NCBI GenBank assembly: GCA_021292105.1
Contig: CM037866.1
Span: 1,783,256 to 1,847,255 of the forward strand
Reading direction: 5' to 3'
Source: Anadara kagoshimensis
Taxonomy: Eukaryota > Mollusca > Bivalvia > Arcoida > Arcidae
DNA length: 64,000 nt
The notes below the pieces were generated by a model, which was not told where the DNA came from, ran no database searches, and was given only the letters and a program-made list of their open reading frames with translations. How positions within the stretch are numbered: the first letter of the stretch is position 1; every line of letters starts with the position of its first letter. Shown in pieces: positions 601-46,211 of the stretch. The translations under genes were made by a program, and so were the position numbers.

Positions 601-1111
601 TCACAACAGGTGTCATTTCATATTCAATGACAAGCCGATAGTAATAATGGGGGGGGGGTCTGTGTATTTTGTTAGTAGCATCAGTCCATTAGTTGTTAGC
701 TGTTACTTGTTAGTCAAAAATTTAAATAATAATAATTGAAAGTATACACCATATTTTTTATACACTAATAGAAAAATAATGGGAAATAATTTCACACAGC
801 CATTATTGAAAAAGTGCTGATAACTAATAATTTACCCCAACTCATTTTAGTTCACATGGAGAAAAATATGGATGGAAAAAAGTTTTGAACTTTATTTTCC
901 TGATATTTGCTGTATATTTAGAAATAAAGAGGTCGCCATGGACTTTTTCTCTATCATTTATAAAAACATAAAAATTTAAGGTTCTCTTAATATGAAGAAA
1001 ATCTTAAAAACATTTTTCATTTCTCATTTTTGACAAAAACAATTGTATTCCGAAACGGCTATCCAATGCTGTAAAATTAAAAGGTCACTTATACATAATG
1101 AGCATACTCAC

Positions 1112-1162
1112 TGTTACTTTTGATACCGAGTTTAACTTTGGAGGACGTACAGGAGTAGGACG
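1112..1162 (-). CDS. S/T-P repeat micro-exon E (RPTPVRPPKLNSVSKVT)
   Basis: A 51-nt phase-0 exon with donor gtgagt (reads actcac at 1106-1111) and acceptor cag (ctg at 1163-1165). Its peptide aligns with the other four modules over the pattern x-x-[ST]-P-x-x-[TP]-P-x-[LI]-K-x. It is the most 3' exon visible in the window. Confidence 0.6.
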
Positions 1163-4100
1163 CTGAAATGGTAAAAGCAGTAAAACGGCATTTCATATTT
1201 CTTATTCACCACCTGGCTGATTTATTGGCGAGTTAAAAGGACATATCATAAAGTGATCAAAGACATAATTTATAATACAACTTTAAACATTGAATATAAC
1301 AAACTTCATTATCTGTCATATTACTTGATAACAAATATACTGTTATCACTAAAGAAATGGGGTTGGGGGCAAAAAGTATCTTCCTCTAACAGGATAAGGG
1401 ATATATGTAAGAATTCACATGAAACTTATTTAATTTGTAATTTAAACTACTTCCATGTGTCAAGGATTCTTTCAATTTGCCATGCATGAAAGAGTTGTCT
1501 TCTGGATTTTCTGTTGAACTAACAGAAATTGCACTTCTTTTTCCAGTCATCTTTATATAATAATAATAATGATAATTTTATTTCCCAAACATGGTACATG
1601 CATGTAATGGCAATATATACATAAACTAAATCATGGCAATATAAACATAATTCATTTGGATAAAATTTGACAGACATACTTACCTTTACCTTCGATGGTG
1701 TCTTTATACTTGGAGTGGCAACAGATTTATGCTGAAAGGACAAAAGCAGTTTAGCTTTTCAAAATTTTAATATTTATTATTATGCAAACTGATTATGGGT
1801 TTACCATAAGCTATATCATACAAGACATACTGGGGGCATTTAGTTTTTGTTTACACCGAGGAGGAACAATTAAGGGGAAGTCTTGGAAAATAATGAGAAT
1901 TTATCTCATTGTGAGCATTGTATAAAACATTGACCCAAGACATGAAAATGGGTAGTGACTGTTTTTTGGCCAAGCACACAGCATTATGATATTAAAGTCA
2001 CGGGTCCTTCAGAATAGAGACCTTAACAAGTAGATAACTACCAGATGTCCCCCCGCATGGCAAAATTTTTTTATATGCCATACTGTGATTAAAGGTTTTG
2101 TGTTATAAAAGGTACCGTATGTTTATATTGCAATTTGAAACTGGATATAATACCAAATATGAGTGAAATATCGCCAAGCATGACAAAAAGAAAGTCTGGA
2201 CACACATCATTTTGATGAAATTTCCTAAGTGAAAGGATCATAACTCCACCAAAACTCAGTTGAACAGAACAAAAAGCAAACTGGATCTGTAAATTGCCAC
2301 TTAAGACTCACATTCCAAATTTAAGTCAAATATCTCCAAGCATGATGAAAAAAGTCTGGAAAACCATTTTGATGAAAATCCCTAAGTGAAAGGGGCATAA
2401 CTCCAGCAAAACTAAGTTGACAGGAACGAAACATGAACTGGATCTGCAACATGCCACTATAGACTCACATCTCAAATTTTGAGTCAAAAATCTCCAAGCA
2501 TGATGAAAAAAGTCGGGAAAACCATCATTTTGATGGATTCATTAAATGAAAGGGGCATAACTCCACCAAAACTCAGTCAACCAGAACAAAACATGAACTG
2601 GATCTGTAACATCCCACTATAGACTCACATATCAAATTTGAGTAAAATATCTCCAAGCATGATTTTGTTTTTTTTTCTTTCATCCATTTATAACACTTCC
2701 TATTGATATTGGATGCTTTTGCCAGTACAGAGCAACAAAAGGGGGATAGGTGTGAGCTGCCTGCAATGCCATGTGCCTCTTGTTGCCTAACATTTCATGA
2801 ATAAGTTTCACACTGAAATATGTATCTGCTGCCAAGACTGTGATGGCCATCATAAAACTGATAGCATTGAAAATATTACTGGCATAATAATTAACACTCA
2901 TTAATTTATTGGTAGATAGGAGTTTCATTCATACAAATAATTTGCTGGAAGTCTCTATTCCTCTTGAGCAAAATTCAAAATAACATAACACAAAGAATTT
3001 CTTAACCTGTATGCAACAATATATATTTTTGGTACTTTAAGTATTTTATTTCAATATCTTGAACATTTTTTGCACTTTGTATTTCTGAAGCACCTGGCTA
3101 GGGCTGTAAAATTACAACAGTAATGTAATATTTAAATATAAACATACTCACCATTACTTTTGAGGCTAACTTTGGAGTGCATACAGGAGTAAGATGCTGA
3201 AACAGTGAAAGCAGTAAAATAGTACTTCAAATTTCTTATGCATCACTATATCGATATATTGATAGTGATTTAAGGACATGCAATATCACATATACTACTT
3301 CCAAGGAAAGTAATGGTTCTAATTGCAAGATGACATCTTACTTTAAGAAACTTTACAACCCGTTACAAAGATATGAACTTTCCTGAAGGCATGGAGTTTT
3401 ACTAGTAGATTAACAGAAATTGACTATTTTTTTTTAAGTCATCTTTATATTTGATAGGTATACTCACCCTTACTTTCAATGGCAACTTTAAATTTGGTGT
3501 GGAAATGGGAGATTCAAGCTGAAAGGAGAAAAACAGTTCAGCATTTCAAATTCCAATATATACTATTGTGCAAATGGTTTTTAATGCTGTTAAATCAAGT
3601 ATTTAAGCTAGCCATAGTGTCAACCATTAAAAAAAACTGTCATCTGTCTCCAGAATTGTCCTTTGTGTAAATAGTAACATTTTGACACCTCCTAATGGGG
3701 TTCTTAAAAGTTTTTGCAGTTGCATATTTATTACGATTTTGCCATTGATATTTCATAAGAGGCATGTTTAGTGCATTACAATGGCATGTGGTATACATCT
3801 ACTTCTTGCAAAATAATTAAGATAGATGACTAGTGTTCTAGAAAAGTTCTTGAACCAGATCACTTGCATCACCAAATATCAATGTCGTCCTGATCCCACA
3901 CAAGTCGGGATTTTTACAATCAGTGTTTGTCCCTTTTCCTTTATACATTATTGAATCTTGTTTTGTGTTATTTGAGGCATTCGCTTTTGCTAAGTATACC
4001 CGTATCCAGCTGCTGTTTTATATTCTTCTCGTTACCAATTTCTAATACATACTGAACTTGATTCATTGGTGTGATTTTGCCATGCAAATTATGGACATAC

Positions 4101-5239
4101 CATACTTATGGCTAAAGGATTTAACATGAATGTAAAAATGTTCACTACATGTCATATTTCCTTATGACAGAAACAGTATTTATGAGTTTTTACTATTAAT
4201 ACAAAAGGAATGTGGTAAGGGGGCATAAAATACCCTCTTCGTATAGGAGTAGATATCAGTAAGCTCTGGCTCTGACTATTAAACAATTGCCATGCATTAG
4301 GGATTCTTTCATATTGCCATGTAGAAAAAAACTATTTTATGTGTTTCTTTCTTGGCTGTTTCTGGTAGATTAAAGAAATGAAACCTTTACATTTCATGAG
4401 TATACTCACCTTGTCTTTCAACGGCGACTTTAAATTTGGAGTGTAAAAAGCAGATTTGTCCTAAAAGGAGAAAAGTAGTTTAGTACAATTAAACCTTGCT
4501 ATACTCCGGCCATTTGGTTTACTAAAATTTTGGCATTATAAAGAAGTTTGGCAATACGCTGAGGGAAACTTATAGAGAAAAATATAGACAAAATTGGAAA
4601 TTACGACTTTAAAAATCTATGGCGATAAATGAGGTGAGGGGCATTATGACGTTTTACTGTATATCACATTCCAACATTAATTATTATACTGCTTGATTAC
4701 TACTCTGTTAAATCAGATATTTATTAAACTCTCCAGAATCTAAACCATTGCAGAAAACTGTCAACTGTTGAGTATTGTTCTTGTATAAAATAACACTTTT
4801 GGCAGTGAAGGTTATGATACATTCTTTTTTCAAAAATAAAAGAGTAATATCCCTCTTGGACCTCAGAAGGGTAATAAATGAAAATGATTGAAAGTCTACT
4901 CTGGTATCTTGTGAATTTAAATTTTTTGAAATCTAAAGTTATAATATTAAACTCTAGCATGTGGTTTTATCTCGATTGCTCCGAGAAATATCGTTTAGTC
5001 CTACCAGATCTTAATAATAGATTAAGTGGTTTAGTCACTTTATGTTGTAACATTATTGTTAACTAGTTTTGTATCCCTAAGTGTTATTACTTGTTTACCT
5101 CATTGAAAAGTACATGCATGTGCCTGTGCATTTAGAGCACAATAAATGGGGATCTAAGACTTCAAAAGAATCTGTTTAATCGTTTAGGAGGAGCTTAATG
5201 CACAAGGTTTGATGCACACACACACACACACACACACAC

Positions 5240-20818: not shown

Positions 20819-21818
20819 NNNNNNNNNNNNNNNNNNNNNNNNNNNNNNNNNNNNNNNNNNNNNNNNNNNNNNNNNNNNNNNNNNNNNNNNNNNNNNNNNN
20901 NNNNNNNNNNNNNNNNNNNNNNNNNNNNNNNNNNNNNNNNNNNNNNNNNNNNNNNNNNNNNNNNNNNNNNNNNNNNNNNNNNNNNNNNNNNNNNNNNNNN
21001 NNNNNNNNNNNNNNNNNNNNNNNNNNNNNNNNNNNNNNNNNNNNNNNNNNNNNNNNNNNNNNNNNNNNNNNNNNNNNNNNNNNNNNNNNNNNNNNNNNNN
21101 NNNNNNNNNNNNNNNNNNNNNNNNNNNNNNNNNNNNNNNNNNNNNNNNNNNNNNNNNNNNNNNNNNNNNNNNNNNNNNNNNNNNNNNNNNNNNNNNNNNN
21201 NNNNNNNNNNNNNNNNNNNNNNNNNNNNNNNNNNNNNNNNNNNNNNNNNNNNNNNNNNNNNNNNNNNNNNNNNNNNNNNNNNNNNNNNNNNNNNNNNNNN
21301 NNNNNNNNNNNNNNNNNNNNNNNNNNNNNNNNNNNNNNNNNNNNNNNNNNNNNNNNNNNNNNNNNNNNNNNNNNNNNNNNNNNNNNNNNNNNNNNNNNNN
21401 NNNNNNNNNNNNNNNNNNNNNNNNNNNNNNNNNNNNNNNNNNNNNNNNNNNNNNNNNNNNNNNNNNNNNNNNNNNNNNNNNNNNNNNNNNNNNNNNNNNN
21501 NNNNNNNNNNNNNNNNNNNNNNNNNNNNNNNNNNNNNNNNNNNNNNNNNNNNNNNNNNNNNNNNNNNNNNNNNNNNNNNNNNNNNNNNNNNNNNNNNNNN
21601 NNNNNNNNNNNNNNNNNNNNNNNNNNNNNNNNNNNNNNNNNNNNNNNNNNNNNNNNNNNNNNNNNNNNNNNNNNNNNNNNNNNNNNNNNNNNNNNNNNNN
21701 NNNNNNNNNNNNNNNNNNNNNNNNNNNNNNNNNNNNNNNNNNNNNNNNNNNNNNNNNNNNNNNNNNNNNNNNNNNNNNNNNNNNNNNNNNNNNNNNNNNN
21801 NNNNNNNNNNNNNNNNNN
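20819..21818. other. Assembly gap, exactly 1000 N
   Basis: A block of 1000 unknown bases. The round length suggests a scaffolding placeholder, so the true distance is unknown. Satellite sequence begins at its right edge, so at least part of the missing DNA is probably more satellite. Confidence 0.98.
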
Positions 21819-24800
21819 GGTCCGACTGTTCGCATTCCACAATTCTGGTTCCCCTTACAGAGTGACGTCTTATTATCACTTTCACTTAGAGTTGGTATGA
21901 CAGGTCCGACTGTTCGCATTCCACAATTCTGGTTCCCTTACAGAGTGACGTCTTATTATCACTTTCACTTAGAGTCAGTATGACAGGTCCGACTGTTCGC
22001 ATTCCACAATTCTGGTTTCCCTTACAGAGTGACGTCTTATTATCACTTTCACTTAGAGTCAGTATGACAGGTCCGACTGTTCGCATTCCACAATTCTGGT
22101 TCCCTTACAGAGTGACGTTTTTATTATCACTTTCACTTAGAGTCAGTATGACAGGTCCGACTGTTCGCATTCCACAATTCTGGTTCCCTTACAGAGTGGC
22201 GCCTTATTATCATTTTCAGTTAGAGTCAGTATGACAGGTCCGACTGTTCGCATTTCCACAATTCTGGTTCCCTTACAGAGTGACGTCTTATTATCACTTT
22301 CACTTAGAGTCAGTATGACAGGTCCGACTGTTCGCATTCCACAATTCCTGGTTCCCTTACAGAGTGGCGTTTTATTATCACTTTCACTTAGAGTCAGTAT
22401 GACAGGTCCGACTGTTCGCATTCCCACAATTCTGTTCCCTTACAGAGTGACGTCTTATTATCACTTTCACTTAGAGTCAGTATGACAGGTCCGACTGTTC
22501 GCATTCCACAATTCTGGTTCCCTTACAGAGTGACGTTTATTATCACTTTCAGTTAGAGTCAGTATGACAGGTCCGACTGTTCGCATTCCCAATTCTGGTT
22601 CCCTTACAGAGTGACGTCTTATTATCACTTTCACTTAGAGTTGGTATGACAGGTCCGACTGTTCGCATTCCACAATTCTGGTTCCCTTACAGAGTGACGT
22701 TTTATTATCATTTTCACTTAGAGTCAGTAATGACAGGTCCGACTGTTCGCATTCCACAATTCTGGTTCCCTTACAGAGTGACGTCTTATTATCACTTTCA
22801 CTTAGAGTTGGTATGACAGGTCCGACTGTTCGCATTCCACAATTCTGGTTCCCTTACAGAGTGACGTTTTATTATCACTTTCACTTAGAGTCAGTATGAC
22901 AGGTCCGACTGTTCGCATTCCACAATTCTGGTTCCCTTACAGAGTGACGTCTTATTATCACTTTCACTTAGAGTTGGTATGACAGGTCCGACTGTTCGCA
23001 TTCCACAATTCTGGTTCCCTTACAGATGACGTTTTATTATCATTTTCACTTAGAGTCAGTATGACAGGTCCGACTGTTCGCATTCCACATTCTGGTTCCC
23101 TTACAGAGTGACGTCTTATTATCACTTTCACTTAGAGTTGGTATGACAGGTCCGACTGTCGCATTCCACAATTCTGGTTCCCTTACAGAGTGACGTTTTA
23201 TTATCATTTCACTTAGAGTCAGTATGACAGGTCCGACTGTTCGCATTCCACAATTCTGGTTCCCTTACAGAGTGACGTTTTATTATCACTTTCACTTAGA
23301 GTCAGTATGACAGGTCCGACTGTTCGCATTCCACAATTCTGGTTCCCTTACAGAGTGGCGCCTTATTATCACTTTCACTTAGAGTCAGTATGCAGGTCCG
23401 ACTGTTCGCATTCCACAATTCTGGTTCCCTTACACGAGTGACGTCTTATTATCACTTTCACTTAGAGTTGGTATGACAGGTCCGACTGTTCGCATTCCAC
23501 AATTCTGGTTCCCTTACAGAGTGACGTTTTATTATCACTTTCACTTAGAGTCAGTATGACAGTCCGACTGTTCGCATTCCACAATTCTGGTTCCCTTACA
23601 GAGTGACGTTTTATTATCACTTTCACTAGAGTCAGTATGACAGGTCCGACTGTTCGCATTCCACAATTCTGGTTCCCTTACAGTGACGTTTATTATCACT
23701 TTCACTTAGAGTCAGTATGACAGGTCCGACTGTTCGCATTCCACAATTCTGGTTCCCTTACAGAGTGACGTTTTATTATCACTTTCACTTAGAGTCAGTA
23801 TGAACAGGTCCGACTGTTCGCATTCCACAATTCTGGTTCCCTTACAGAGTGACGTCTTATTATCACTTTCACTTAGAGTTGGTATGACAGGTCCGACTGT
23901 TCGCATTCCACAATTCTGGTTCCCTTACAGAGTGACGTTTTATTATCACTTTCAGTTAGAGTCAGTATGAAGGTCCGACTGTTCGCATTCCACAATTCTG
24001 GTTCCCTTACAGAGTGACGTCTTATTATCACTTTCACTGTCTTATTATCACTTTCACTTAGAGTTGGTATGACAGGTCCGACTGTTCGCATTCCACAATT
24101 CTGGTTCCCTTACAGAGTGACGTCTTATTATCACTTTCACTTAGAGTCAGTATGACAGGTCCGACTGTTCGCATTCCACAATTCTGGTTCCCTTACAGAG
24201 TGACGTTTTATTATCACTTTCACTTAGAGTCAGTATGACAGGTCGACTGTTCGCATTCCACAATTCTGGTTCCCTTACAGAGTGACGTCTTATTATCACT
24301 TTCACTTAGAGTTGGTATGACAGGTCCGACTGTTCGCATTCCACAATTCTGGTTCCCTTACAGAGTGACGTTTTATTATCACTTTCACTTAGAGTCAGTA
24401 TGACAGGTCCGACTGTTCGCATTCCACAATTCTGGTTCCCTTACAGAGTGACGTCTTATTATCACTTTCACTTAGAGTTGGTATGACAGGTCCGACTGTT
24501 TCGCATTCCACAATTCTGGTTCCTTACAGAGTGACGTTTTATTATCACTTTCACTTAGAGTCAGTATGACAGGTCCGACTGTTCGCATTCCACAATTCTG
24601 GTTCCCTTACAGAGTGACGTTTTATTATCACTTTCAGTTAGAGTTGGTATGACAGGTCCGACTGTTCGCATTCCACAATTCTGGTTCCCTTACAGAGTGA
24701 CGTTTTATTATCACTTTCACTTAGAGTTGGTATGACAGGTCCGACTGTTCGCATTCCACAATTCTGGTTCCCTTACAGAGTGACGTTTTATTATCACTTT

Positions 24801-27800
24801 CACTTAGAGTCAGTATGACAGTCCGACTGTTCGCATTCCACAATTCTGGTTCCCTTACAGAGTGACGTTTTATTATCACTTTCAGTTAGAGTCAGTATGA
24901 CAGGTCCGACTGTTCGCATTCCACAATTCTGGTTCCCTTACAGAGTGACGTTTTATTATCACTTTCACTTAGAGTCAGTATGACAGGTCCGACTGTTCGC
25001 ATTCCACAATTCTGGTTCCCTTACAGAGTGACGTTTTATTATCACTTTCACTTAGAGTCAGTATGACAGGTCCGACTGTTCGCATTCCACAATTCTGGTT
25101 CCCTTACAGAGTGACGTCTTATTATCACTTTCACTTAGAGTTGGTATGACAGGTCCGACTGTTCGCATTCCACAATTCTGGTTCCCTTACAGAGTGACGT
25201 TTTATTATCACTTTCAGTTAGAGTTGGTATGACAGGTCCGACTGTTCGCATTCCACAATTCTGGTTCCCTTACAGAGTGACGTTTTATTATCACTTTCAG
25301 TTAGAGTCAGTATGACAGGTCCGACTGTTCGCATTCCACAATTCTGGTTCCCTTACAGAGTGACGTTTTATTATCACTTTCAGTTAGAGTCAGTATGACA
25401 GGTCCGACTTTCGCATTCCCAATTCTGGTTCCCTTACAGAGTGACGTTTTATTATCACTTTCAGTTAGAGTCAGTATGACAGGTCCGACTGTTCGCATTC
25501 CACAATTCTGGTTCCCTTACAGAGTGACGTTTTATTATCACTTTCACTTAGAGTCAGTATGACAGGTCCGACTGTTCGCATTCCACAATTCTGGTTCCCT
25601 TACAGAGTGACGCTTTATTATCACTTTCAGTTAGAGTTGGTATGACAGGTCCGACTGTTCGCATTCCACAATTCTGGTTCCCTTACAGAGTGACGTTATT
25701 ATCACTTTCAGTTAGAGTCAGTATGACAGGTCCGACTGTTCGCATTCCACAATTCTGGTTCCCTTACAGAGTGACGGTTTTATTATCACTTTCAGTTAGA
25801 GTCAGTATGACAGGTCCGACTGTTCGCATTCCACAATTCTGGTTCCCTTACAGAGTGACGTTTTATTATCACTTTCAGTTAGAGTCAGTATGACAGGTCC
25901 GACTGTTCGCATTCCACAATTCTGGTTCCCTTACAGAGTGACGTTTTATTATCACTTTCAGTTAGAGTTGGTATGACAGGTCCGACTGTTCGCATTCCAC
26001 AATTCTGGTTCCCTTACAGAGTGACGTTTTATTATCACTTTCAGTTAGAGTCAGTATGACAGGTCCGACTGTTCGCATTCCACAATTCTGTTCCCTTACA
26101 GAGTGACGCTTTATTATCACTTTCAGTTAGAGTCAGTATGACAGGTCCGACTGTTCGCATTCCACAATTCTGGTTCCCTTACAGAGTGACGTTTTATTAT
26201 CACTTTCAGTTAGAGTTGGTATGACAGGTCCGACTGTTCGCATTCCACAATTCTGGTTCCCTTACAGAGTGACGTTTTATTATCACTTTCAGTTAGAGTC
26301 AGTATGACAGGTCCGACTGTTCGCATTCCACAATTCTGGTTCCCTTACAGAGTGACGCTTTATTATCACTTTCAGTTAGAGTCAGTATGACAGGTCCGAC
26401 TGTTCGCATTCCACAATTCTGGTTCCCTTACAGAGTGACGTTTTATTATCACTTTCACTTAGAGTCAGTATGACAGGTCCGACTGTTCGCATTCCACAAT
26501 TCTGGTTCCCTTACAGAGTGACGTTTTATTATCACTTTCAGTTAGAGTTGGTATGACAGGTCCGACTGTTCGCATTCCACAATTCTGGTTCCCTTACAGA
26601 GTGACGTTTTATTATCACTTTCAGTTAGAGTCAGTATGACAGGTCCGACTGTTCGCATTCCACAATTCTGGTTCCCTTACAGAGTGACGTTTTATTATCA
26701 CTTTCACTTAGAGTCAGTATGACAGGTCCGACTGTTCGCATTCCACAATTCTGGTTCCCTTACAGAGTGACGTTTTATTATCACTTTCACTTAGAGTTGG
26801 TATGACAGGTCCGACTGTTCGCATTCCACAATTCTGGTTCCCTTACAGAGTGACGTTTTATTATCACTTTCACTTAGAGTCAGTATGACAGGTCCGACTG
26901 TTCGCATTCCACAATTCTGGTTCCCTTACAGAGTGACGCTTTATTATCACTTTCAGTTAGAGTTGGTATGACAGGTCCGACTGTTCGCATTCCACAATTC
27001 TGGTTCCCTTACAGAGTGACGTTTTATTATCACTTTCACTTAGAGTTGGTATGACAGGTCCGACTGTTCGCATTCCACAATTCTGGTTCCCTTACAGAGT
27101 GACGTTTTATTATCACTTTCACTTAGAGTCAGTATGACAGGTCCGACTGTTCGCATTCCACAATTCTGGTTCCCTTACAGAGTGACGTTTTATTATCACT
27201 TTCACTTAGAGTCAGTATGACAGGTCCGACTGTTCGCATTCCACAATTCTGGTTCCCTTACAGAGTGACGTTTTATTATCACTTTCACTTAGAGTTGGTA
27301 TGACAGGTCCGACTGTTCGCATTCCACAATTCTGGTTCCCTTACAGAGTGACGTTTTATTATCACTTTCACTTAGAGTCAGTATGACAGGTCCGACTGTT
27401 CGCATTCCACAATTCTGGTTCCCTTACAGAGTGACGTTTTATTATCACTTTCAGTTAGAGTCAGTATGACAGGTCCGACTGTTCGCATTCCACAATTCTG
27501 GTTCCCTTACAGAGTGACGTCTTATTATCACTTTCACTTAGAGTCAGTATGACAGGTCCGACTGTTCGCATTCCACAATTCTGGTTCCCTTACAGAGTGA
27601 CGTTTTATTATCACTTTCAGTTAGAGTTGGTATGACAGGTCCGACTGTTCGCATTCCACAATTCTGGTTCCCTTACAGAGTGACGTTTAATTATCACTTT
27701 CAGTTAGAGTCAGTATGACAGGTCCGACTGTTCGCATTCCACAATTCTGGTTCCCTTACAGAGTGACGTCTTATTATCACTTTCACTTAGAGTCAGTATG

Positions 27801-30800
27801 ACAGGTCCGACTGTTCGCATTCCACAATTCTGGTTCCCTTACAGAGTGACGTTTTATATCACTTTCAGTTAGAGTTGGTATGACAGGTCCGACTGTTCGC
27901 ATTCCACAATTCTGGTTCCCTTACAGAGTGACGTTTATTATCACTTTCAGTTAGAGTCAGTATGACAGGTCCGACTGTTCGCATTCCACAATTCTGGTTC
28001 CCTTACAGAGTGACGTCTTATTATCACTTTCACTTAGAGTCAGTATGACAGGTCCGACTGTTCGCATTCCACAATTCTGGTTCCCTTACAGAGTGACGTC
28101 TTATTATCACTTTCACTTAGAGTCAGTATGACAGGTCCGACTGTTCGCATTCCACAATTCTGGTTCCCTTACAGAGTGACGTTTTATTATCACTTTCAGT
28201 TAGAGTTGGTATGACAGGTCCGACTGTTCGCATTCCACAATTCTGGTTCCCTTACAGAGTGACGTTTTATTATCACTTTCAGTTAGATTCGGTATGACAG
28301 GTCCGACTGTTCGCATTCCACAATTCTGGTTCCCTTACAGAGTGACGTCTTATTATCACTTTCACTTAGAGTCAGTATGACAGGTCCGACTGTTCGCATT
28401 CCACAATTCTGGTTCCCTTACAGAGTGACGTTTTATTATCACTTTCAGTTAGAGTTGGTATGACAGGTCCGACTGTTCGCATTCCACAATTCTGGTTCCC
28501 TTACAGAGTGACGTTTTATTATCACTTTCAGTTAGAGTCAGTATGACAGGTCCGACTGTTCGCATTCCACAATTCTGTTCCCTTACAGAGTGACGTCTTA
28601 TTATCACTTTCACTTAGAGTCAGTATGACAGGTCCGACTGTTCGCATTCCACAATTCTGGTTCCCTTACAGAGTGACGTTTTATTATCACTTTCACTAGA
28701 GTTGGTATGACAGGTCCGACTGTTCGCATTCCACAATTCTGGTTCCCTTACAGAGTGACGTTTTATTATCACTTTCACTTAGAGTCAGTATGACAGGTCC
28801 GACTGTTCGCATTCCACAATTCTGGTTCCCTTACAGAGTGACGTTTTATTATCACTTTCACTTAGAGTTGGTATGACAGGTCCGACTGTTCGCATTCCAC
28901 AATTCTGGTTCCCTTACAGAGTGACGTTTTATTATCACTTTCAGTTAGAGTCAGTATGACAGGTCCGACTGTTCGCATTCCACAATTCTGGTTCCCTTAC
29001 AGAGTGACGTCTTATTATCACTTTCACTTAGAGTCAGTATGACAGGTCCGACTGTTCGCATTCCACAATTCTGGTTCCCTTACAGAGTGACGTTTTATTA
29101 TCACTTTCAGTTAGAGTTGGTATGACAGGTCCGACTGTTCGCATTCCACAATTCTGGTTCCCTTACAGAGTGACGTTTTATTATCACTTTCAGTTAGAGT
29201 CAGTATGACAGGTCCGACTGTTCGCATTCCACAATTCTGGTTCCCTTACAGAGTGACGTCTTATTATCACTTTCACTTAGAGTCAGTATGACAGGTCCGA
29301 CTGTTCGCATTCCACAATTCTGGTTCCCTTACAGAGTGACGTTTTATTATCACTTTCAGTTAGAGTTGGTATGACAGGTCCGACTGTTCGCATTCCACAA
29401 TTCTGGTTCCCTTACAGAGTGACGTTTTATTATCACTTTCAGTTAGAGTCAGTATGACAGGTCCGACTGTTCGCATTCCACAATTCTGGTTCCCTTACAG
29501 AGTGACGTCTTATTATCACTTTCACTTAGAGTCAGTATGACATGTCCGACTGTTCGCATTCCACAATTCTGGTTCCCTTACAGAGTGACGTCTTATTATC
29601 ACTTTCACTTAGAGTCAGTATGACAGGTCCGACTGTTCGCATTCCACAATTCTGGTTCCCTTACAGAGTGACGTTTTATTATCACTTTCAGTTAGAGTTG
29701 GTATGACAGGTCCGACTGTTCGCATTCCACAATTCTGGTTCCCTTACAGAGTGACGTTTTATTATCACTTTCAGTTAGAGTCAGTATGACAGGTCCGACT
29801 GTTCGCATTCCACAATTCTGGTTCCCTTACAGAGTGACGTCTTATTATCACTTTCACTTAGAGTCAGTATGACAGGTCCGACTGTTCGCATTCCACAATT
29901 CTGGTTCCCTTACAGAGTGACGTTTTATTATCACTTTCAGTTAGAGTTGGTATGACAGGTCCGACTGTTCGCATTCCACAATTCTGGTTCCCTTACAGAG
30001 TGACGTTTTATTATCACTTTCAGTTAGAGTCAGTATGACAGGTCCGACTGTTCGCATTCCACAATTCTGGTTCCCTTACAGAGTGACGTCTTATTATCAC
30101 TTTCACTTAGAGTCAGTATGACAGGTCCGACTGTTCGCATTCCACAATTCTGGTTCCCTTACAGAGTGACGTCTTATTATCACTTTCACTTAGAGTCAGT
30201 ATGACAGGTCCGACTGTTCGCATTCCACAATTCTGGTTCCCTTACAGAGTGACGTTTTATTATCACTTTCAGTTAGAGTTGGTATGACAGGTCCGACTGT
30301 TCGCATTCCACAATTCTGGTTCCCTTACAGAGTGACGTTTTATTATCACTTTCAGTTAGAGTAGTATGACAGGTCCGACTGTTCGCATTCCACAATTCTG
30401 GTTCCCTTACAGAGTGACGTCTTATTATCACTTTCACTTAGAGTCAGTATGACAGGTCCGACTGTTCGCATTCCACAATTCTGGTTCCCTTACAGAGTGA
30501 CGTTTTATTATCACTTCAGTTAGAGTTGGTATGACAGGTCCGACTGTTCGCATTCCACAATTCTGGTTCCCTTACAGAGTGACGTTTTATTATCACTTTC
30601 AGTTAGAGTCAGTATGACAGGTCCGACTGTTCGCATTCCACAATTCTGGTTCCCTTACAGAGTGACGTCTTATTATCACTTTCACTTAGAGTCAGTATGA
30701 CAGGTCCGACTGTTCGCATTCCACAATTCTGGTTCCCTTACAGAGTGACGTTTTATTATCACTTTCAGTTAGAGTTGGTATGACAGGTCCGACTGTTCGC

Positions 30801-33800
30801 ATTCCACAATTCTGGTTCCCTTACAGAGTGACGTTTTATTATCACTTTCACTTAGAGTCAGTATGACAGGTCCGACTGTTCGCATTCCACAATTCTGGTT
30901 CCCTTACAGAGTGACGTTTTATTATCACTTTCACTTAGAGTTGGTATGACAGGTCCGACTGTTCGCATTCCACAATTCTGGTTCCCTTACAGAGTGACGT
31001 TTTATTATCACTTTCAGTTAGAGTCAGTATGACAGGTCCGACTGTTCGCATTCCACAATTCTGGTTCCCTTACAGAGTGACGTTTTATTATCACTTTCAG
31101 TTAGAGTTGGTATGACAGGTCCGACTGTTCGCATTCCACAATTCTGGTTCCCTTACAGAGTGACGTCTTATTATCACTTTCACTTAGAGTCAGTATGACA
31201 GGTCCGACTGTTCGCATTCCACAATTCTGGTTCCCTTACAGAGTGACGTTTTATTATCACTTTCAGTTAGAGTTGGTATGACAGGTCCGACTGTTCGCAT
31301 TCCACAATTCTGGTTCCCTTACAGAGTGACGTTTTATTATCACTTTCAGTTAGAGTTGGTATGACAGGTCCGACTGTTCGCATTCCACAATTCTGGTTCC
31401 CTTACAGAGTGACGTTTTATTATCACTTTCAGTTAGAGTCAGTATGACAGGTCCGACTGTTCGCATTCCACAATTCTGGTTCCCTTACAGAGTGACGTCT
31501 TATTATCACTTTCACTTAGAGTCAGTATGACAGGTCCGACTGTTCGCATTCCACAATTCTGGTTCCCTTACAGAGTGACGTTTTTATTATCACTTTCAGT
31601 TAGAGTCAGTATGACAGGTCCGACTGTTCGCATTCCACAATTCTGGTTCCCTTACAGAGTGACGTTTTATTATCACTTTCAGTTAGAGTCAGTATGACAG
31701 GTCCGACTGTTCGCATTCCACAATTCTGGTTCCCTTACAGAGTGACGTTTTATTATCACTTTCACTTAGAGTTGGTATGACAGGTCCGACTGTTCGCATT
31801 CCACAATTCTGGTTCCCTTACAGAGTGACGTTTTATTATCACTTTCACTTAGAGTCAGTATGACAGGTCCGACTGTTCGCATTCCACAATTCTGGTTCCC
31901 TTACAGAGTGACGCTTTATTATCACTTTCAGTTAGAGTTGGTATGACAGGTCCGACTGTTCGCATTCCACAATTCTGGTTCCCTTACAGAGTGACGTTTT
32001 ATTATCACTTTCACTTAGAGTTGGTATGACAGGTCCGACTGTTCGCATTCCACAATTCTGGTTCCCTTACAGAGTGACGTTTTATTATCACTTTCACTTA
32101 GAGTCAGTATGACAGGTCCGACTGTTCGCATTCCACAATTCTGGTTCCCTTACAGAGTGACGTTTTATTATCACTTTCACTTAGAGTCAGTATGACAGGT
32201 CCGACTGTTCGCATTCCACAATTCTGGTTCCCTTACAGAGTGACGTTTTATTATCACTTTCACTTAGAGTTGGTATGACAGGTCCGACTGTTCGCATTCC
32301 ACAATTCTGGTTCCCTTACAGAGTGACGTTTTATTATCACTTTCACTTAGAGTCAGTATGACAGGTCCGACTGTTCGCATTCCACAATTCTGGTTCCCTT
32401 ACAGAGTGACGTTTTATTATCACTTTCAGTTAGAGTCAGTATGACAGGTCCGACTGTTCGCATTCCACAATTCTGGTTCCCTTACAGAGTGACGTCTTAT
32501 TATCACTTTCACTTAGAGTCAGTATGACAGGTCCGACTGTTCGCATTCCACAATTCTGGTTCCCTTACAGAGTGACGTTTTATTATCACTTTCAGTTAGA
32601 GTTGGTATGACAGGTCCGACTGTTCGCATTCCACAATTCTGGTTCCCTTACAGAGTGACGTTTAATTATCACTTTCAGTTAGAGTCAGTATGACAGGTCC
32701 GACTGTTCGCATTCCACAATTCTGGTTCCCTTACAGAGTGACGTCTTATTATCACTTTCACTTAGAGTCAGTATGACAGGTCCGACTGTTCGCATTCCAC
32801 AATTCTGGTTCCCTTACAGAGTGACGTTTTATTATCACTTTCAGTTAGAGTTGGTATGACAGGTCCGACTGTTCGCATTCCACAATTCTGGTTCCCTTAC
32901 AGAGTGACGTTTTATTATCACTTTCAGTTAGAGTCAGTATGACAGGTCCGACTGTTCGCATTCCACAATTCTGGTTCCCTTACAGAGTGACGTCTTATTA
33001 TCACTTTCACTTAGAGTCAGTATGACAGGTCCGACTGTTCGCATTCCACAATTCTGGTTCCCTTACAGAGTGACGTCTTATTATCACTTTCACTTAGAGT
33101 CAGTATGACAGGTCCGACTGTTCGCATTCCACAATTCTGGTTCCCTTACAGAGTGACGTTTTATTATCACTTTCAGTTAGAGTTGGTATGACAGGTCCGA
33201 CTGTTCGCATTCCACAATTCTGGTTCCCTTACAGAGTGACGTTTTATTATCACTTTCAGTTAGAGTCGGTATGACAGGTCCGACTGTTCGCATTCCACAA
33301 TTCTGGTTCCCTTACAGAGTGACGTCTTATTATCACTTTCACTTAGAGTCAGTATGACAGGTCCGACTGTTCGCATTCCACAATTCTGGTTCCCTTACAG
33401 AGTGACGTTTTATTATCACTTTCAGTTAGAGTTGGTATGACAGGTCCGACTGTTCGCATTCCACAATTCTGGTTCCCTTACAGAGTGACGTTTTATTATC
33501 ACTTTCAGTTAGAGTCAGTATGACAGGTCCGACTGTTCGCATTCCACAATTCTGGTTCCCTTACAGAGTGACGTCTTATTATCACTTTCACTTAGAGTCA
33601 GTATGACAGGTCCGACTGTTCGCATTCCACAATTCTGGTTCCCTTACAGAGTGACGTTTTATTATCACTTTCACTTAGAGTTGGTATGACAGGTCCGACT
33701 GTTCGCATTCCACAATTCTGGTTCCCTTACAGAGTGACGTTTTATTATCACTTTCACTTAGAGTCAGTATGACAGGTCCGACTGTTCGCATTCCACAATT

Positions 33801-36800
33801 CTGGTTCCCTTACAGAGTGACGTTTTATTATCACTTTCACTTAGAGTTGGTATGACAGGTCCGACTGTTCGCATTCCACAATTCTGGTTCCCTTACAGAG
33901 TGACGTTTTATTATCACTTTCAGTTAGAGTCAGTATGACAGGTCCGACTGTTCGCATTCCACAATTCTGGTTCCCTTACAGAGTGACGTCTTATTATCAC
34001 TTTCACTTAGAGTCAGTATGACAGGTCCGACTGTTCGCATTCCACAATTCTGGTTCCCTTACAGAGTGACGTTTTATTATCACTTTCAGTTAGAGTTGGT
34101 ATGACAGGTCCGACTGTTCGCATTCCACAATTCTGGTTCCCTTACAGAGTGACGTTTTATTATCACTTTCAGTTAGAGTCAGTATGACAGGTCCGACTGT
34201 TCGCATTCCACAATTCTGGTTCCCTTACAGAGTGACGTCTTATTATCACTTTCACTTAGAGTCAGTATGACAGGTCCGACTGTTCGCATTCCACAATTCT
34301 GGTTCCCTTACAGAGTGACGTTTTATTATCACTTTCAGTTAGAGTTGGTATGACAGGTCCGACTGTTCGCATTCCACAATTCTGGTTCCCTTACAGAGTG
34401 ACGTTTTATTATCACTTTCAGTTAGAGTCAGTATGACAGGTCCGACTGTTCGCATTCCACAATTCTGGTTCCCTTACAGAGTGACGTCTTATTATCACTT
34501 TCACTTAGAGTCAGTATGACATGTCCGACTGTTCGCATTCCACAATTCTGGTTCCCTTACAGAGTGACGTCTTATTATCACTTTCACTTAGAGTCAGTAT
34601 GACAGGTCCGACTGTTCGCATTCCACAATTCTGGTTCCCTTACAGAGTGACGTTTTATTATCACTTTCAGTTAGAGTTGGTATGACAGGTCCGACTGTTC
34701 GCATTCCACAATTCTGGTTCCCTTACAGAGTGACGTTTTATTATCACTTTCAGTTAGAGTCAGTATGACAGGTCCGACTGTTCGCATTCCACAATTCTGG
34801 TTCCCTTACAGAGTGACGTCTTATTATCACTTTCACTTAGAGTCAGTATGACAGGTCCGACTGTTCGCATTCCACAATTCTGGTTCCCTTACAGAGTGAC
34901 GTTTTATTATCACTTTCAGTTAGAGTTGGTATGACAGGTCCGACTGTTCGCATTCCACAATTCTGGTTCCCTTACAGAGTGACGTTTTATTATCACTTTC
35001 AGTTAGAGTCAGTATGACAGGTCCGACTGTTCGCATTCCACAATTCTGGTTCCCTTACAGAGTGACGTCTTATTATCACTTTCACTTAGAGTCAGTATGA
35101 CAGGTCCGACTGTTCGCATTCCACAATTCTGGTTCCCTTACAGAGTGACGTCTTATTATCACTTTCACTTAGAGTCAGTATGACAGGTCCGACTGTTCGC
35201 ATTCCACAATTCTGGTTCCCTTACAGAGTGACGTTTTATTATCACTTTCAGTTAGAGTTGGTATGACAGGTCCGACTGTTCGCATTCCACAATTCTGGTT
35301 CCCTTACAGAGTGACGTTTTATTATCACTTTCAGTTAGAGTCAGTATGACAGGTCCGACTGTTCGCATTCCACAATTCTGGTTCCCTTACAGAGTGACGT
35401 CTTATTATCACTTTCACTTAGAGTCAGTATGACAGGTCCGACTGTTCGCATTCCACAATTCTGGTTCCCTTACAGAGTGACGTTTTATTATCACTTTCAG
35501 TTAGAGTTGGTATGACAGGTCCGACTGTTCGCATTCCACAATTCTGGTTCCCTTACAGAGTGACGTTTTATTATCACTTTCAGTTAGAGTCAGTATGACA
35601 GGTCCGACTGTTCGCATTCCACAATTCTGGTTCCCTTACAGAGTGACGTCTTATTATCACTTTCACTTAGAGTCAGTATGACAGGTCCGACTGTTCGCAT
35701 TCCACAATTCTGGTTCCCTTACAGAGTGACGTTTTATTATCACTTTCAGTTAGAGTTGGTATGACAGGTCCGACTGTTCGCATTCCACAATTCTGGTTCC
35801 CTTACAGAGTGACGTTTTATTATCACTTTCACTTAGAGTCAGTATGACAGGTCCGACTGTTCGCATTCCACAATTCTGGTTCCCTTACAGAGTGACGTTT
35901 TATTATCACTTTCACTTAGAGTTGGTATGACAGGTCCGACTGTTCGCATTCCACAATTCTGGTTCCCTTACAGAGTGACGTTTTATTATCACTTTCAGTT
36001 AGAGTCAGTATGACAGGTCCGACTGTTCGCATTCCACAATTCTGGTTCCCTTACAGAGTGACGTTTTATTATCACTTTCAGTTAGAGTTGGTATGACAGG
36101 TCCGACTGTTCGCATTCCACAATTCTGGTTCCCTTACAGAGTGACGTCTTATTATCACTTTCACTTAGAGTCAGTATGACAGGTCCGACTGTTCGCATTC
36201 CACAATTCTGGTTCCCTTACAGAGTGACGTTTTATTATCACTTTCAGTTAGAGTTGGTATGACAGGTCCGACTGTTCGCATTCCACAATTCTGGTTCCCT
36301 TACAGAGTGACGTTTTATTATCACTTTCAGTTAGAGTTGGTATGACAGGTCCGACTGTTCGCATTCCACAATTCTGGTTCCCTTACAGAGTGACGTTTTA
36401 TTATCACTTTCAGTTAGAGTCAGTATGACAGGTCCGACTGTTCGCATTCCACAATTCTGGTTCCCTTACAGAGTGACGTCTTATTATCACTTTCACTTAG
36501 AGTCAGTATGACAGGTCCGACTGTTCGCATTCCACAATTCTGGTTCCCTTACAGAGTGACGTTTTATTATCACTTTCAGTTAGAGTCAGTATGACAGGTC
36601 CGACTGTTCGCATTCCACAATTCTGGTTCCCTTACAGAGTGACGTTTTATTATCACTTTCAGTTAGAGTCAGTATGACAGGTCCGACTGTTCGCATTCCA
36701 CAATTCTGGTTCCCTTACAGAGTGACGTCTTATTATCACTTTCACTTAGAGTCAGTATGACAGGTCCGACTGTTCGCATTCCACAATTCTGGTTCCCTTA

Positions 36801-38532
36801 CAGAGTGACGTCTTATTATCACTTTCACTTAGAGTCAGTATGACAGGTCCGACTGTTCGCATTCCACAATTCTGGTTCCCTTACAGAGTGACGTTTTATT
36901 ATCACTTTCAGTTAGAGTTGGTATGACAGGTCCGACTGTTCGCATTCCACAATTCTGGTTCCCTTACAGAGTGACGTTTTATTATCACTTTCAGTTAGAG
37001 TCAGTATGACAGGTCCGACTGTTCGCATTCCACAATTCTGGTTCCCTTACAGAGTGACGTCTTATTATCACTTTCACTTAGAGTCAGTATGACAGGTCCG
37101 ACTGTTCGCATTCCACAATTCTGGTTCCCTTACAGAGTGACGTCTTATTATCACTTTCACTTAGAGTCAGTATGACAGGTCCGACTGTTCGCATTCCACA
37201 ATTCTGGTTCCCTTACAGAGTGACGTTTTATTATCACTTTCAGTTAGAGTTGGTATGACAGGTCCGACTGTTCGCATTCCACAATTCTGGTTCCCTTACA
37301 GAGTGACGTTTTATTATCACTTTCAGTTAGAGTCAGTATGACAGGTCCGACTGTTCGCATTCCACAATTCTGGTTCCCTTACAGAGTGACGTCTTATTAT
37401 CACTTTCACTTAGAGTCAGTATGACAGGTCCGACTGTTCGCATTCCACAATTCTGGTTCCCTTACAGAGTGACGTTTTATTATCACTTTCACTTAGAGTT
37501 GGTATGACAGGTCCGACTGTTCGCATTCCACAATTCTGGTTCCCTTACAGAGTGACGTTTTATTATCACTTTCAGTTAGAGTCAGTATGACAGGTCCGAC
37601 TGTTCGCATTCCACAATTCTGGTTCCCTTACAGAGTGACGTCTTATTATCACTTTCACTTAGAGTCAGTATGACAGGTCCGACTGTTCGCATTCCACAAT
37701 TCTGGTTCCCTTACAGAGTGACGTTTTATTATCACTTTCACTTAGAGTTGGTATGACAGGTCCGACTGTTCGCATTCCACAATTCTGGTTCCCTTACAGA
37801 GTGACGTTTTATTATCACTTTCAGTTAGAGTCAGTATGACAGGTCCGACTGTTCGCATTCCACAATTCTGGTTCCCTTACAGAGTGACGTCTTATTATCA
37901 CTTTCACTTAGAGTTGGTATGACAGGTCCGACTGTTCGCATTCCACAATTCTGGTTCCCTTACAGAGTGACGCCTTATTATCACTTTCACTTAGAGTTGG
38001 TATGACAGGTCCGACTGTTCGCATTCCACAATTCTGGTTCCCTTACAGAGTGACGTTTTATTATCATTTTCACTTAGAGTCAGTATGACAGGTCCGACTG
38101 TTCGCATTCCACAATTCTGGTTCCCTTACAGAGTGACGTCTTATTATCATTTTCACTTAGAGTCAGTATGACAGGTCCGACTGTTCGCATTCCACAATTC
38201 TGGTTCCCTTACATAGTGACGCCTTATTATCATTTTCACTTAGAGTCAGTATGACAGGTCCGACTGTTCGCATTCCACAATTCTGGTTCCCTTACATAGT
38301 GACGCCTTATTATCATTTTCACTTAGAGTCAGTATGACAGGTCCGACTGTTCGCATTCCACAATTCTGGTTCCCTTACAGAGTGACGTCTTATTATCACT
38401 TTCACTTAGAGTTGGTATGACAGGTCCGACTGTTCGCATTCCACAATTCTGGTTCCCTTACAGAGTGACGTTTTATTATCACTTTCACTTAGAGTCAGTA
38501 TGACAGGTCCGACTGTTCGCATTCCACAATTC
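21819..38532. repeat. 83-bp satellite DNA array, about 200 copies
   Basis: The unit starts GGTCCGACTGTTCGCATTCC and runs through CTTACAGAGTGACG and TTAGAGTCAGTATGACA. It is 83 bp, and 16.7 kb holds about 201 copies in one orientation. Three variable sites mark subtypes: gacgTTTTatt / gacgTCTTatt / gacgCTTTatt, ttcaCttag / ttcaGttag, and agtCAGtatg / agtTGGtatg. Because 83 is not a multiple of three, all frames close within about 80-95 codons, so it is not coding. The part at 21.8-25.5 kb has many single-base indels, while 25.5-38.5 kb is almost perfect. The left end is lost in the gap. The right end is abrupt at 38532, in the middle of a unit. Confidence 0.97.
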
Positions 38533-38974
38533 TTGCTTATCTATAAAACATTTACGCAACGAGGGGTCTAAATTGGACGACATTGCAGCTTAAATTGGAC
38601 ACGTGTAAACTGATTATCTGAACTCTTGACTAGACCTGGCGGTGATATGGACGGGGAAAATGTATACGTGTATGTCATATAAACTAATCTTGTTGATTGA
38701 ATTATTGGTTAAAACGTTTCACTAGACTAGTGGATTTTATGGTTGAAGGGGACAATTGTGTTTTCCATTCCTAAAAATCTTTAAAGTTTGAAATTACGAA
38801 CTATCAATAACCTTGTCTCCACCGTTTTATAATGGAATAGTCCTAATTATTATTCATAACCAAAGGTCAGACGATAAGGTCAAATTTGTCTGATTTTAAG
38901 TTCAAACGAGGACTATACTCCGAGATTCCGTCAAAACATAATACAAAGAAGAAACTTCAAGAAAGTCCGTAATA
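38533..38974 (+). promoter_or_regulatory. Presumed promoter and 5' UTR of the IgGFc-binding-domain gene
   Basis: Only about 440 bp of unique sequence separates the satellite edge from the start codon. No clear TATA box can be defended. It is called a promoter only because of its position. Confidence 0.3.
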
Positions 38975-41062: not shown

Positions 41063-44000
41063 GTCATCATCATCATCATCATCATCATCACCCCCATCAT
41101 CATCACCATCATTATCATCATCATCTACATAGAGGACACCTGTCCATTAAGGACAATGTGAATCTCATTTTGTTACAAATGAATTGTTGGCACATAGATA
41201 TTACGAGCCCAGGCTTTGTTACGCCACATAGCGGTGTTGCCGCATAAACGCGCCCAACACGTCTATGCGGGGAATTCTAACGCATAAAGAGGTCCGCCAC
41301 GTTTATGCGGCGGCGTTCAACGCATAAAGATGTGTTGCTTATATGCGGCGCAAGGCTGCCTTTATTACGCATAACGATGGCTGATGTTAACGAGTTGGAA
41401 TGAAATTTAAAAAGAGCTGATATCTCGACAAAAACGGTGGTGGTGATATAAATTATGACGACGACGGTGACAATTGAGATTTATGTTGTTGGTGTTGTTG
41501 ATAATGGCAATAATAATACGAGGATGGGGACAGGGACGATGAGAGCGCGACGACGATGTTACCGTCGTCGTGCCGACGGCGGTGGCGATTATGACTGTTG
41601 ATGATCGTTAAATTGTGATTTTGGCAGAATTTCTACTTTTGATTTAATAATAATAATAATAATAATAAAAATAATAATAATGTAATGATGATCATCACGA
41701 TGGTGGTGGTGTTTTATGTGAAGATGGTTATAATGATGGAGGTGTAAATGTTGGTGATGATAGTAATTGTTTTCTTTATGCGGCGGAATGTAGCCTTTTT
41801 GCCGCATAAAAGCTTTCTCTTTATGCGTTGAAATTCCCTGCATAGACGTGTTGGAACACGTTTATGCGGCAACACCGCTATGTGGCGTAACAGGGCTTAA
41901 CAAAGCCCTCAGAAAATTTTATGGCCGTCATCACTATATTTTTTTATAAGTTTGATGTGTCTGTATCCAGGATACCCTAGATATATTCAAGACGTCCTAT
42001 AGTTACATGCTCCTTTTAGTCAATTTTGATTACAAGCTAGTTAAACAGGAGGTTCTTAACCTTCCGGAACACCCGTTCTCACTTCCATTATGAAATTTCA
42101 CGTGTTTAAATGAACGTTTCAGAGCTTTAATTTGCTTTGGCATTGTGATTCAGGCATAGACCGGTATGTTTGTTTTTGAAAAATATGCCATATTATAATT
42201 TTTTGAATTTTCTGAATACATTCAAAAAATTATAATGATACAGAGGAGAATTAAAATTATTTTTTTTTTGTTAAGGAAAAACAAAAGAATTGGACATTCT
42301 GCACACATAACATTCAAATGTTTCTGCATCGTCCATGATAACATGACGTCGCTGAGACCCAATCCATTCATGCAAAATTAACAGAAAAGATCTGACCAAT
42401 CATTAAATACTTGAAAACAAAGGAGAATTGAATTACAAATTTTAATGTTGATTCTAATACATTTTTTTTATTTTTTCAGTAATAAATATAACTGCTAACT
42501 TAAATACCACTAAAGAACCCGGTAAGTACCTGTTTTAAATAATGTAATGCCACTTGGGCTAACGAATGCTCCAACGGGAATGTTTATTCTATATACCAAT
42601 GATTCACGTCGAACTGTTTCTTTTAAGATACAACTTGATATATTTGACGTCTCATAGTTCCATGTGTTGCTTTCATTCTTAATTTTCATCACACACGTGT
42701 AGCCACCTAAACAGGAGGTACCTTTCCGGAGCACCCATCATCATTTTCCTGGTGGAAGTTCACGGTTTTGTTTCAAATTTTTACTTTGTTTCGGAATTGT
42801 GGTTTGAACATAGATTGACATGTTTGTTTTTGCTTTGGGATTGTAGTTTGGACATGGATTAGTATGTTTGTTTTTACTTTGCTTGGGGATTGTAGTTTGA
42901 ACATAGATTGGCATGTTTGTTTTTGCTTTGGGATTGTAGTTTGGATATGGATAAGTATGTTTGTTTTTTACTTTGCTTGGGGATTGTAATTTGGACATGG
43001 ATTGGTATGTTTGTTTTTACCTTGCTTTAGGATTGTAGTTTGGACATGGATAAGTATGTTTGTTTTTTCTTTTGCTTTGGGATTGTAGTTTGGATATGGA
43101 TTGGTATGTTTGTTTTTACCTTGCTTTAGGATTGTAGTTTGGACATGGATTGGTATGTTTGTTTTTTCTTTTGCTTTGGGATTGTAGTTTGGATATGGAT
43201 TGGTATGTTTGTTTTTACCTTGCTTTGGGATTGTAGTTTGGACATGGATTAGTATGTTTGTTTTTACTTTGCTTGGGGATTGTAGTTTGAACATAGATTG
43301 GCATGTTTGTTTTTGCTTTGGGATTGTAGTTTGGACATGGATTGGTATGTTTGTTTTTTCTTTTGCTTTGGGATTGTAGTTTGGACATGGATTGGTATGT
43401 TTGTTTTTTCTTTTGCTTTGGGATTGTAGTTTGGACATGGATTGGTATGTTTGTTTTTACCTTGCTTTAGGATTGTAGTTTGGACATGGATTGGTATGTT
43501 TGTATTTTCTTTTGCTTTGGGATTGTAATTTGGACATGGATTGGTATGTTTGTTTTTTCTTTTGCTTTAGGATTGTAGTTTGGACATAGATTGTTATGTT
43601 TGTTTTTCTTTTGCTTTGGGATTGTAATTTGGACATGGATTGGTATGTTTGTTTTTACCTTGCTTTAGGATTGTAGTTTGGACATGGATTGGTATGTTTG
43701 TTTTTTCTTTTGCTTTAGGATTGTAGTTTGGACATAGATTGTTATGTTTGTTTTTTCTTTTGCTTTGGGATTGTAATTTGGACATGGATTGGTATGTTTG
43801 TTTTTACCTTGCTTTAGGATTGTAGTTTGGACATGGATTGGTATGTTTGTTTTTACTTTGCTTTAGGATTGTAGTTTGGACATGGATTGGTATGTTTGTT
43901 TTTACCTTGCTTTAGGATTGTAGTTTGGACACGAATTGGTATGTTTGTTTTACTTTTGGATTGTTTTTGATTTAGACTTTTAATTTTCAGATGTTAGTGA

Positions 44001-46017: not shown

Positions 46018-46066
<49 letters not shown>

Positions 46067-46166
46067 CTTTCATACACACGTTGAGAGAGGGGGCTCAGAT
46101 CCTAATCTCTCCTACTCTCTCTCTCTCTCTCTCTCTCATACACACATAGAGAGGTTCAGATCCTAA

Positions 46167-46211
<45 letters not shown>

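Follow-up and report, generated by a model that had tools for sequence, protein, structure and literature searches.

Five short segments on the minus strand of the window (the 64,000-nucleotide stretch of Anadara kagoshimensis DNA that was analysed) are, with a probability of about two in three, coding micro-exons of one gene that would encode a largely disordered, S/T-P-rich protein and would have grown by duplication of an A-B exon unit. Throughout the text, exon means predicted exon, called from sequence alone. The five segments are the following.

4460-4410, minus strand: E1, A-like micro-exon, 51 nt, DKSAFYTPNLKSPLKDK; AG/GT ends, phase 0-0, open
3518-3468, minus strand: E2, type A micro-exon, 51 nt, LESPISTPNLKLPLKVR; AG/GT ends, phase 0-0, open
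3196-3152, minus strand: E3, type B micro-exon, 45 nt, HLTPVCTPKLASKVM; AG/GT ends, phase 0-0, open
1731-1684, minus strand: E4, type A micro-exon, 48 nt, HKSVATPSIKTPSKVK; AG/GT ends, phase 0-0, open
1162-1112, minus strand: E5, type B micro-exon, 51 nt, RPTPVRPPKLNSVSKVT; AG/GT ends, phase 0-0, open

All five have AG and GT ends, a pyrimidine-rich tract, an open frame 0 and a length that is a multiple of three. A first-pass annotation of this DNA had placed five exons of 45-51 nt, all of phase 0, at these places on the minus strand; our peptides are identical to those it gave, and the phase is indeed 0-0 in each of the five. Small symmetric exons of this kind, here of 45-51 nt, are a mark of MEG-like genes. 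The donors score 9.5, 8.5, 8.5, 9.5 and 6.5 from E1 to E5 (scan cut-off 6.5). E2 and E4 each have a possible second donor 6 nt upstream (exon ends 3474 and 1690, score 6.5 in both), and a weaker GT stands at the equivalent position of E3 and E5; use of this predicted alternative donor would remove the last two residues.

Results

Homology and copy scheme

When the first 9 kb were compared by blastn, exons matched one another together with their intron flanks: E2 and E4 over 127 columns (76%, 89.7 bits), E3 and E5 over 110 columns (77%, 87.8 bits), E1 and E2 over 99 columns (78%, 80.6 bits), and E1 and E4 over 82 columns (76%, 57.2 bits). When the 5-kb stretch was resampled 100 times under a first-order Markov model and scored in the same way, the off-diagonal maximum was 35.6 bits. 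The similarity of the intron flanks, already noticed at first pass, thus holds at up to 90 bits with flanks included, against at most 35.6 bits in the resampled sequence. Matches between types A and B are weaker and are present under more permissive scoring, namely E2 with E5 (E 9e-9), E2 with E3 (9e-6), E1 with E5 (1e-5), E3 with E4 (2e-4) and E4 with E5 (3e-4); E1 with E3 is the sole A-to-B pair that gave no match under this scoring. As these matches consist partly of splice-site sequence held in common, descent of both types from one exon is likely rather than proven.

In a maximum-likelihood tree of exons with flanks (500 bootstraps), E3 and E5 (bootstrap 99) and E2 and E4 (88) are sisters. 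The pairing of copies proposed at first pass, 1112 with 1684 and 3152 with 3468, does not survive this result, and these pairs are neighbours inside one predicted A-B unit, not sisters. E1 sits at the central node of the unrooted five-sequence tree, which alone leaves its type unassigned; by its pairwise scores to E2 and E4 it is a predicted, diverged A-like copy. The order along the gene is A1, A2, B2, A3, B3, and the duplicated units are placed as follows.

3688-4804, minus strand: duplicated unit 1, E1 with introns; match between the intron that follows E1 and the one between E4 and E5; a B exon is not detectable
3077-3687, minus strand: duplicated unit 2, E2-E3; the starts of this unit and of unit 1 match
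1043-1788, minus strand: duplicated unit 3, E4-E5, with matches to unit 2
2154-2663: 160-bp tandem repeat, 3.2 copies, within the E3-E4 intron, part of whose length it explains

The starts of units 1 and 2, that is the upstream flanks of E1 and E2, match at 4804-4661 and 3687-3543, and units 2 and 3 match at 3574-3435 with 1788-1648 and at 3279-3077 with 1244-1043. Moreover, a purely intronic match links 4346-4120, after E1, to 1509-1283 in the E4-E5 intron (245 columns, 61%, E 3e-11). Homology between neighbouring exons and a duplication that takes in flanking intron are both found here, as in tandem exon duplication. The tandem duplication of genomic segments suggested at first pass is well supported by homology, the tree, the intronic matches and the resampled controls. 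The predicted scheme is nested, what was copied being a unit of two exons, A and B.

The colinear intron match stops about 120 nt short of the corresponding B acceptor, that of E5, and the global alignment continues from there at low identity. No remnant of a B exon was found after E1 (four queries against 4110-3690, 400 shuffles each, p 0.23 to 0.98). In the simplest history, types A and B probably descend from one ancestral exon of 15-17 residues, and later tandem copying of the A-B pair would yield the order A1-(B1)-A2-B2-A3-B3, in which B1 has been deleted or was missed by a breakpoint. We infer this order of duplication events, as well as the splicing of the exons into one mRNA.

Assembly copies and inverted repeat

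The first 20,818 bases of the window form the right arm of an inverted repeat that extends to window coordinate -62166, with its centre near -20,680. Its arms of about 41 kb align over 83,247 columns with 99.32% identity; counted on both arms, so that about half are unique, there are 42 mismatches and 467 gap events, of which 420 gap events are of 1 nt and 36 mismatch positions lie no more than about 4.1 kb from the centre. The right arm runs exactly up to a 1000-N gap (20819-21818). A DNA search of the genome (1.115 Gb, 36 contigs) with the E2-E3 region reported four full-length copies as 100% identical.

Window, C10:1738153, C10:1159977 and C7:27246048: copies of the E2-E3 region

The assembly contains this locus four times as a 36-41-kb segment, and outside the centre of the inverted repeat the copies differ from one another by 0-8 mismatches. 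The C7 copy begins right after another N gap, at the base matching window 20818, and aligns with the window arm over 36,290 columns with 0 mismatches and 38 gap openings; for the copy at C10:1.16 Mb, the figures are 36,311 columns, 2 mismatches and 72 gap openings. Since nearly all differences between the copies are small indels and the copies stop at contig gaps, the four copies and the inverted repeat are probably an assembly artefact, one locus assembled several times plus a fold-back, rather than four genes. A very recent real duplication is a possible alternative origin.

A profile search for further modules was run with nhmmer over 164 kb (E up to 1), and it returned only the five exons of each inverted-repeat arm (10 matches). 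Around the other copies, 90 kb of C7 and 80 kb of C10 yielded five exons apiece. No sixth module was seen in the 164 kb, where the next peptide-profile match had an E of 0.45.

Other features were observed around the locus. Directly after the N gap, an 83-bp tandem repeat (about 201 copies, 94% matches) occupies window 21819-38533. Two open frames at window 43984-46955 on the plus strand match the IgGFc_binding domain (E 2e-12 and 2.6e-35), and an FSTL1-like EF-hand segment at 58680-58976, plus strand, scores 25.9 bits, below its cut-off of 27. Together with the repeat content, these two matches would point to an animal, probably a bivalve. In unique sequence beyond the left arm, at window coordinates -79629 to -79314, lies a plus-strand open frame, on the same strand as the left arm's gene copy, which we take to resemble an F-box domain.

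Readings of the splicing

Phase 0-0 would permit any subset of the five exons to be skipped without a change of frame, and the many isoforms foreseen at first pass would be allowed by phase. Skipping, constant inclusion and mutually exclusive use appear to fit the sequence equally well. If all five were constitutively included, the locus would hold a small linker repeat array in which splicing has no regulatory part, a reading that shares the anatomy of our main explanation and differs from it only on splicing. Consensus-like donors are found in all five exons and nothing in the sequence demands skipping, and we regard constitutive inclusion as quite plausible, at somewhat less than even odds.

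Mutually exclusive use would place one exon, or one A and one B, in each transcript, the number of sites being then constant and their flavour variable. Such choices start from tandem homologous exons of matching phase, and precedents are provided by the oyster AOX gene, described as using either of two tandem last-exon copies (PMC5589949), and by the human cases covered in a review (PMC9741552). Nevertheless, we consider it unlikely here, as intron length, on which it was judged, gives no sequence argument for it (the shortest intron, E2-E3, has 271 nt).

Apparent maintenance of frames and splice sites

Lengths differ among the exons by 3 and 6 nt, and the gaps in the flanks include gaps of 1, 2, 3, 5 and 8 columns. 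In a neutral simulation (20,000 trials per rate) that treats the copies as independent, starts from the present open sequences and is favoured by ascertainment, the exons having been noticed for being open, all five copies kept AG, GT and an open in-phase frame without indels at frequencies of 0.0125, 0.0034 and 0.0004 for 0.15, 0.2 and 0.3 substitutions per site, respectively, and the chance was lower still with indels. The terminal branches of the tree measure 0.19-0.45. Thus, the frames and splice sites of the five predicted exons look maintained.

The pooled pN/pS is about 0.8 (0.334/0.416, ten pairs), with single pairs at 0.59-1.15, and amino-acid constraint is therefore weak. Exon identity exceeds that of both flanks in 6 of the ten pairs, most strongly for E1 with E2 and E4 (71-73% vs 47-53%), and in the other four (E1/E5, E2/E4, E2/E5 and E4/E5) one flank is at least as well conserved as the exon. 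When the peptides are aligned, all five copies share the P of the T/P-P pair and a K close to their end. Our reading is that the five modules would be weakly constrained linker sequence held in frame.

A pN/pS near 0.8 and a gene with no Pfam or PDB relative would also suit decayed copies of a duplicated intronic element with splice-like ends by chance. We find this improbable: all five segments are open, in phase and keep both splice sites, S/T-P sites exceed their number in shuffles (see below), and the 8 rows returned when the genome DNA was searched with the E2-E3 region all fall at the four locus copies, although a search that missed the E4/E5 copies (about 74-76% identical) leaves room for diverged copies elsewhere.

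The putative surrounding gene

Four candidate upstream exons may belong to the gene that would contain the micro-exons.

7649-7539, minus strand: candidate upstream exon, 111 nt, EPNNSYSFDRSPDTSPNTVVFKQRKSKGYSQLYQPNN; phase 0-0, from the filtered listing
8203-8165, minus strand: candidate upstream exon, 39 nt, QHHRGPARKLFND; phase 0-0, from a looser all-frame scan
10531-10385, minus strand: candidate upstream exon with two S-P sites, 147 nt; phase 0-0, from the filtered listing
16991-16947, minus strand: candidate upstream exon, 45 nt, IICVGPTFLSSDSKK; phase 0-0, from the filtered listing, membership of the same gene putative

The exon scan of window 1-24,000 gave 36 open candidates and listed only the 12 that were frame-0 multiples of three; seven of these rows are E1-E5, with E2 and E4 each entered with two donors. 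All four upstream candidates (39-147 nt) are symmetric, and three stem from this listing filtered for symmetry; their phase 0-0 is therefore no proof of an all-symmetric gene. The peptide of the 8203-8165 candidate has an R-x-L-F string that resembles cyclin-docking motifs, and a second frame of this stretch is open too. Candidates at 11838-11749 and 5586-5530 were dropped by eye, and a doubtful one at 14856-14785, from the looser all-frame scan, was used in one Pfam query and left off the exon list.

Searches for the identity of the gene were negative. Pfam gave nothing for three joined pieces (E up to 1), and for the 181-residue joined exon peptide (E up to 10) a single row, TFIIF_beta_N (E 0.17, 12.9 bits against a cut-off of 25), which we took as chance. 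No relative in PDB was found by phmmer, no match in a viral_contigs scan with one exon, and no Rfam family in the window at gathering scores. Several cell-cycle proteins were compared with the gene, and all were dropped. A protein search of the genome with E1+E2 returned zero matches and missed even its own window, and is uninformative. The joined peptide of three candidate upstream exons gave 12 rows in the genome, all at the four assembly copies, and no close paralogue at the sensitivity of this search. At C10:1734265-1734357, the mirror of exon 7649-7539, the match is shorter than in the other three copies (query 69-99 vs 59-99) and its row includes stops, a pattern expected if the copies differ by an indel. 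A fifth place, C5:5722380, was matched by a peptide from an adjoining part of the segment.

No convincing downstream or terminal exon was found in the approximately 17-18 kb common to the copies, nor beyond in the C7 and C10 copies. At C7:27254607 (window about -4.8 kb), a short open stretch lies behind a good acceptor, and a 27-nt internal repeat gives it two K-E-N strings; a terminal exon at this place was not adopted, because the K-E-N reading needs an unseen phase-changing exon. Near C10:1756660, two open frames overlap in one stretch, which was kept apart from the gene; its Pfam and PDB matches are weak, below cut-offs or at E 0.067 and worse.

S/T-P sites and proposed function

From E1 to E5, the exons hold 2, 2, 2, 2 and 1 S/T-P sites. 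The first-pass description of an S/T-P module of 15-17 residues is right in that all five copies have such sites, and it overreaches for E5, which has a single site and, at the position equivalent to TP, a PP in which the phosphorylatable T is absent. The module residues, whose copies are related and hence not independent in this test, contain 9 S/T-P in 82 against 2.9 in composition shuffles, and 0 of 20,000 shuffles reach 9; the single-module p values are 0.02, 0.06, 0.03, 0.08 and 0.70. Three upstream candidate exons have 4 S/T-P in 99 residues (1.5 in shuffles, p 0.044). The joined predicted peptides, with 13 S/T-P in 181 residues (4.3 in shuffles), fall on the disordered side of the charge-hydropathy plot.

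With every copy, the protein would gain a short linker rich in K, S, T and P that carries one or two consensus sites for proline-directed kinases. Copy number, together with splicing if exons are skipped, would then set the count of sites offered to a CDK- or MAPK-type kinase, on the supposition that these sites undergo phosphorylation and that a change in their number has an effect. The R-x-L-F string of the 8203-8165 candidate would suit cyclin docking. S/T-P clusters and this string are both present, as strings only, in the predicted peptides; that they would form a splice-adjustable phosphorylation ladder, with a cyclin-docking motif upstream of skippable modules, exon copies and splicing setting the number of CDK sites and the response threshold, and the array expanded and trimmed (B1 loss) in evolution, strikes us as a long shot.

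Discussion

If spliced as supposed, the locus would be a compact natural case of a linear-motif array grown by nested exon duplication, in which exon copies, apparent exon loss and codon-sized changes of length are visible together. In this region, one locus is probably represented several times in the assembly, and claims on gene copies drawn from it are unsafe.

The PEVK exons of titin encode a flexible linker. Like the titin PEVK exons as described in PMC6469411, the array consists of short exons repeated many times over through exon duplication; unlike them, it has S/T-P content and far fewer copies, and a sequence relation is not claimed. Tandem exon duplication is known in oyster, for exon 10 of AOX (PMC5589949), and substitutions of tandem duplicated exons have been described in human (PMC9741552); the likeness to these cases lies in adjacent homologous exons within one gene and in local duplication. 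With the micro-exon genes (MEGs) of schistosomes, as presented in PMC4350168, the array shares very small symmetric exons that could be skipped without a frame change. It differs from the oyster and human cases by its five copies of 15-17 codons and its nested A-B scheme. In the schistosome MEGs, most of the coding region consists of micro-exons and the products occur in secretions (PMC4350168); the Anadara array is a set of predicted exons. Tandem exon duplication and arrays of symmetric micro-exons are already known, and the locus looks like a tidy example of them.
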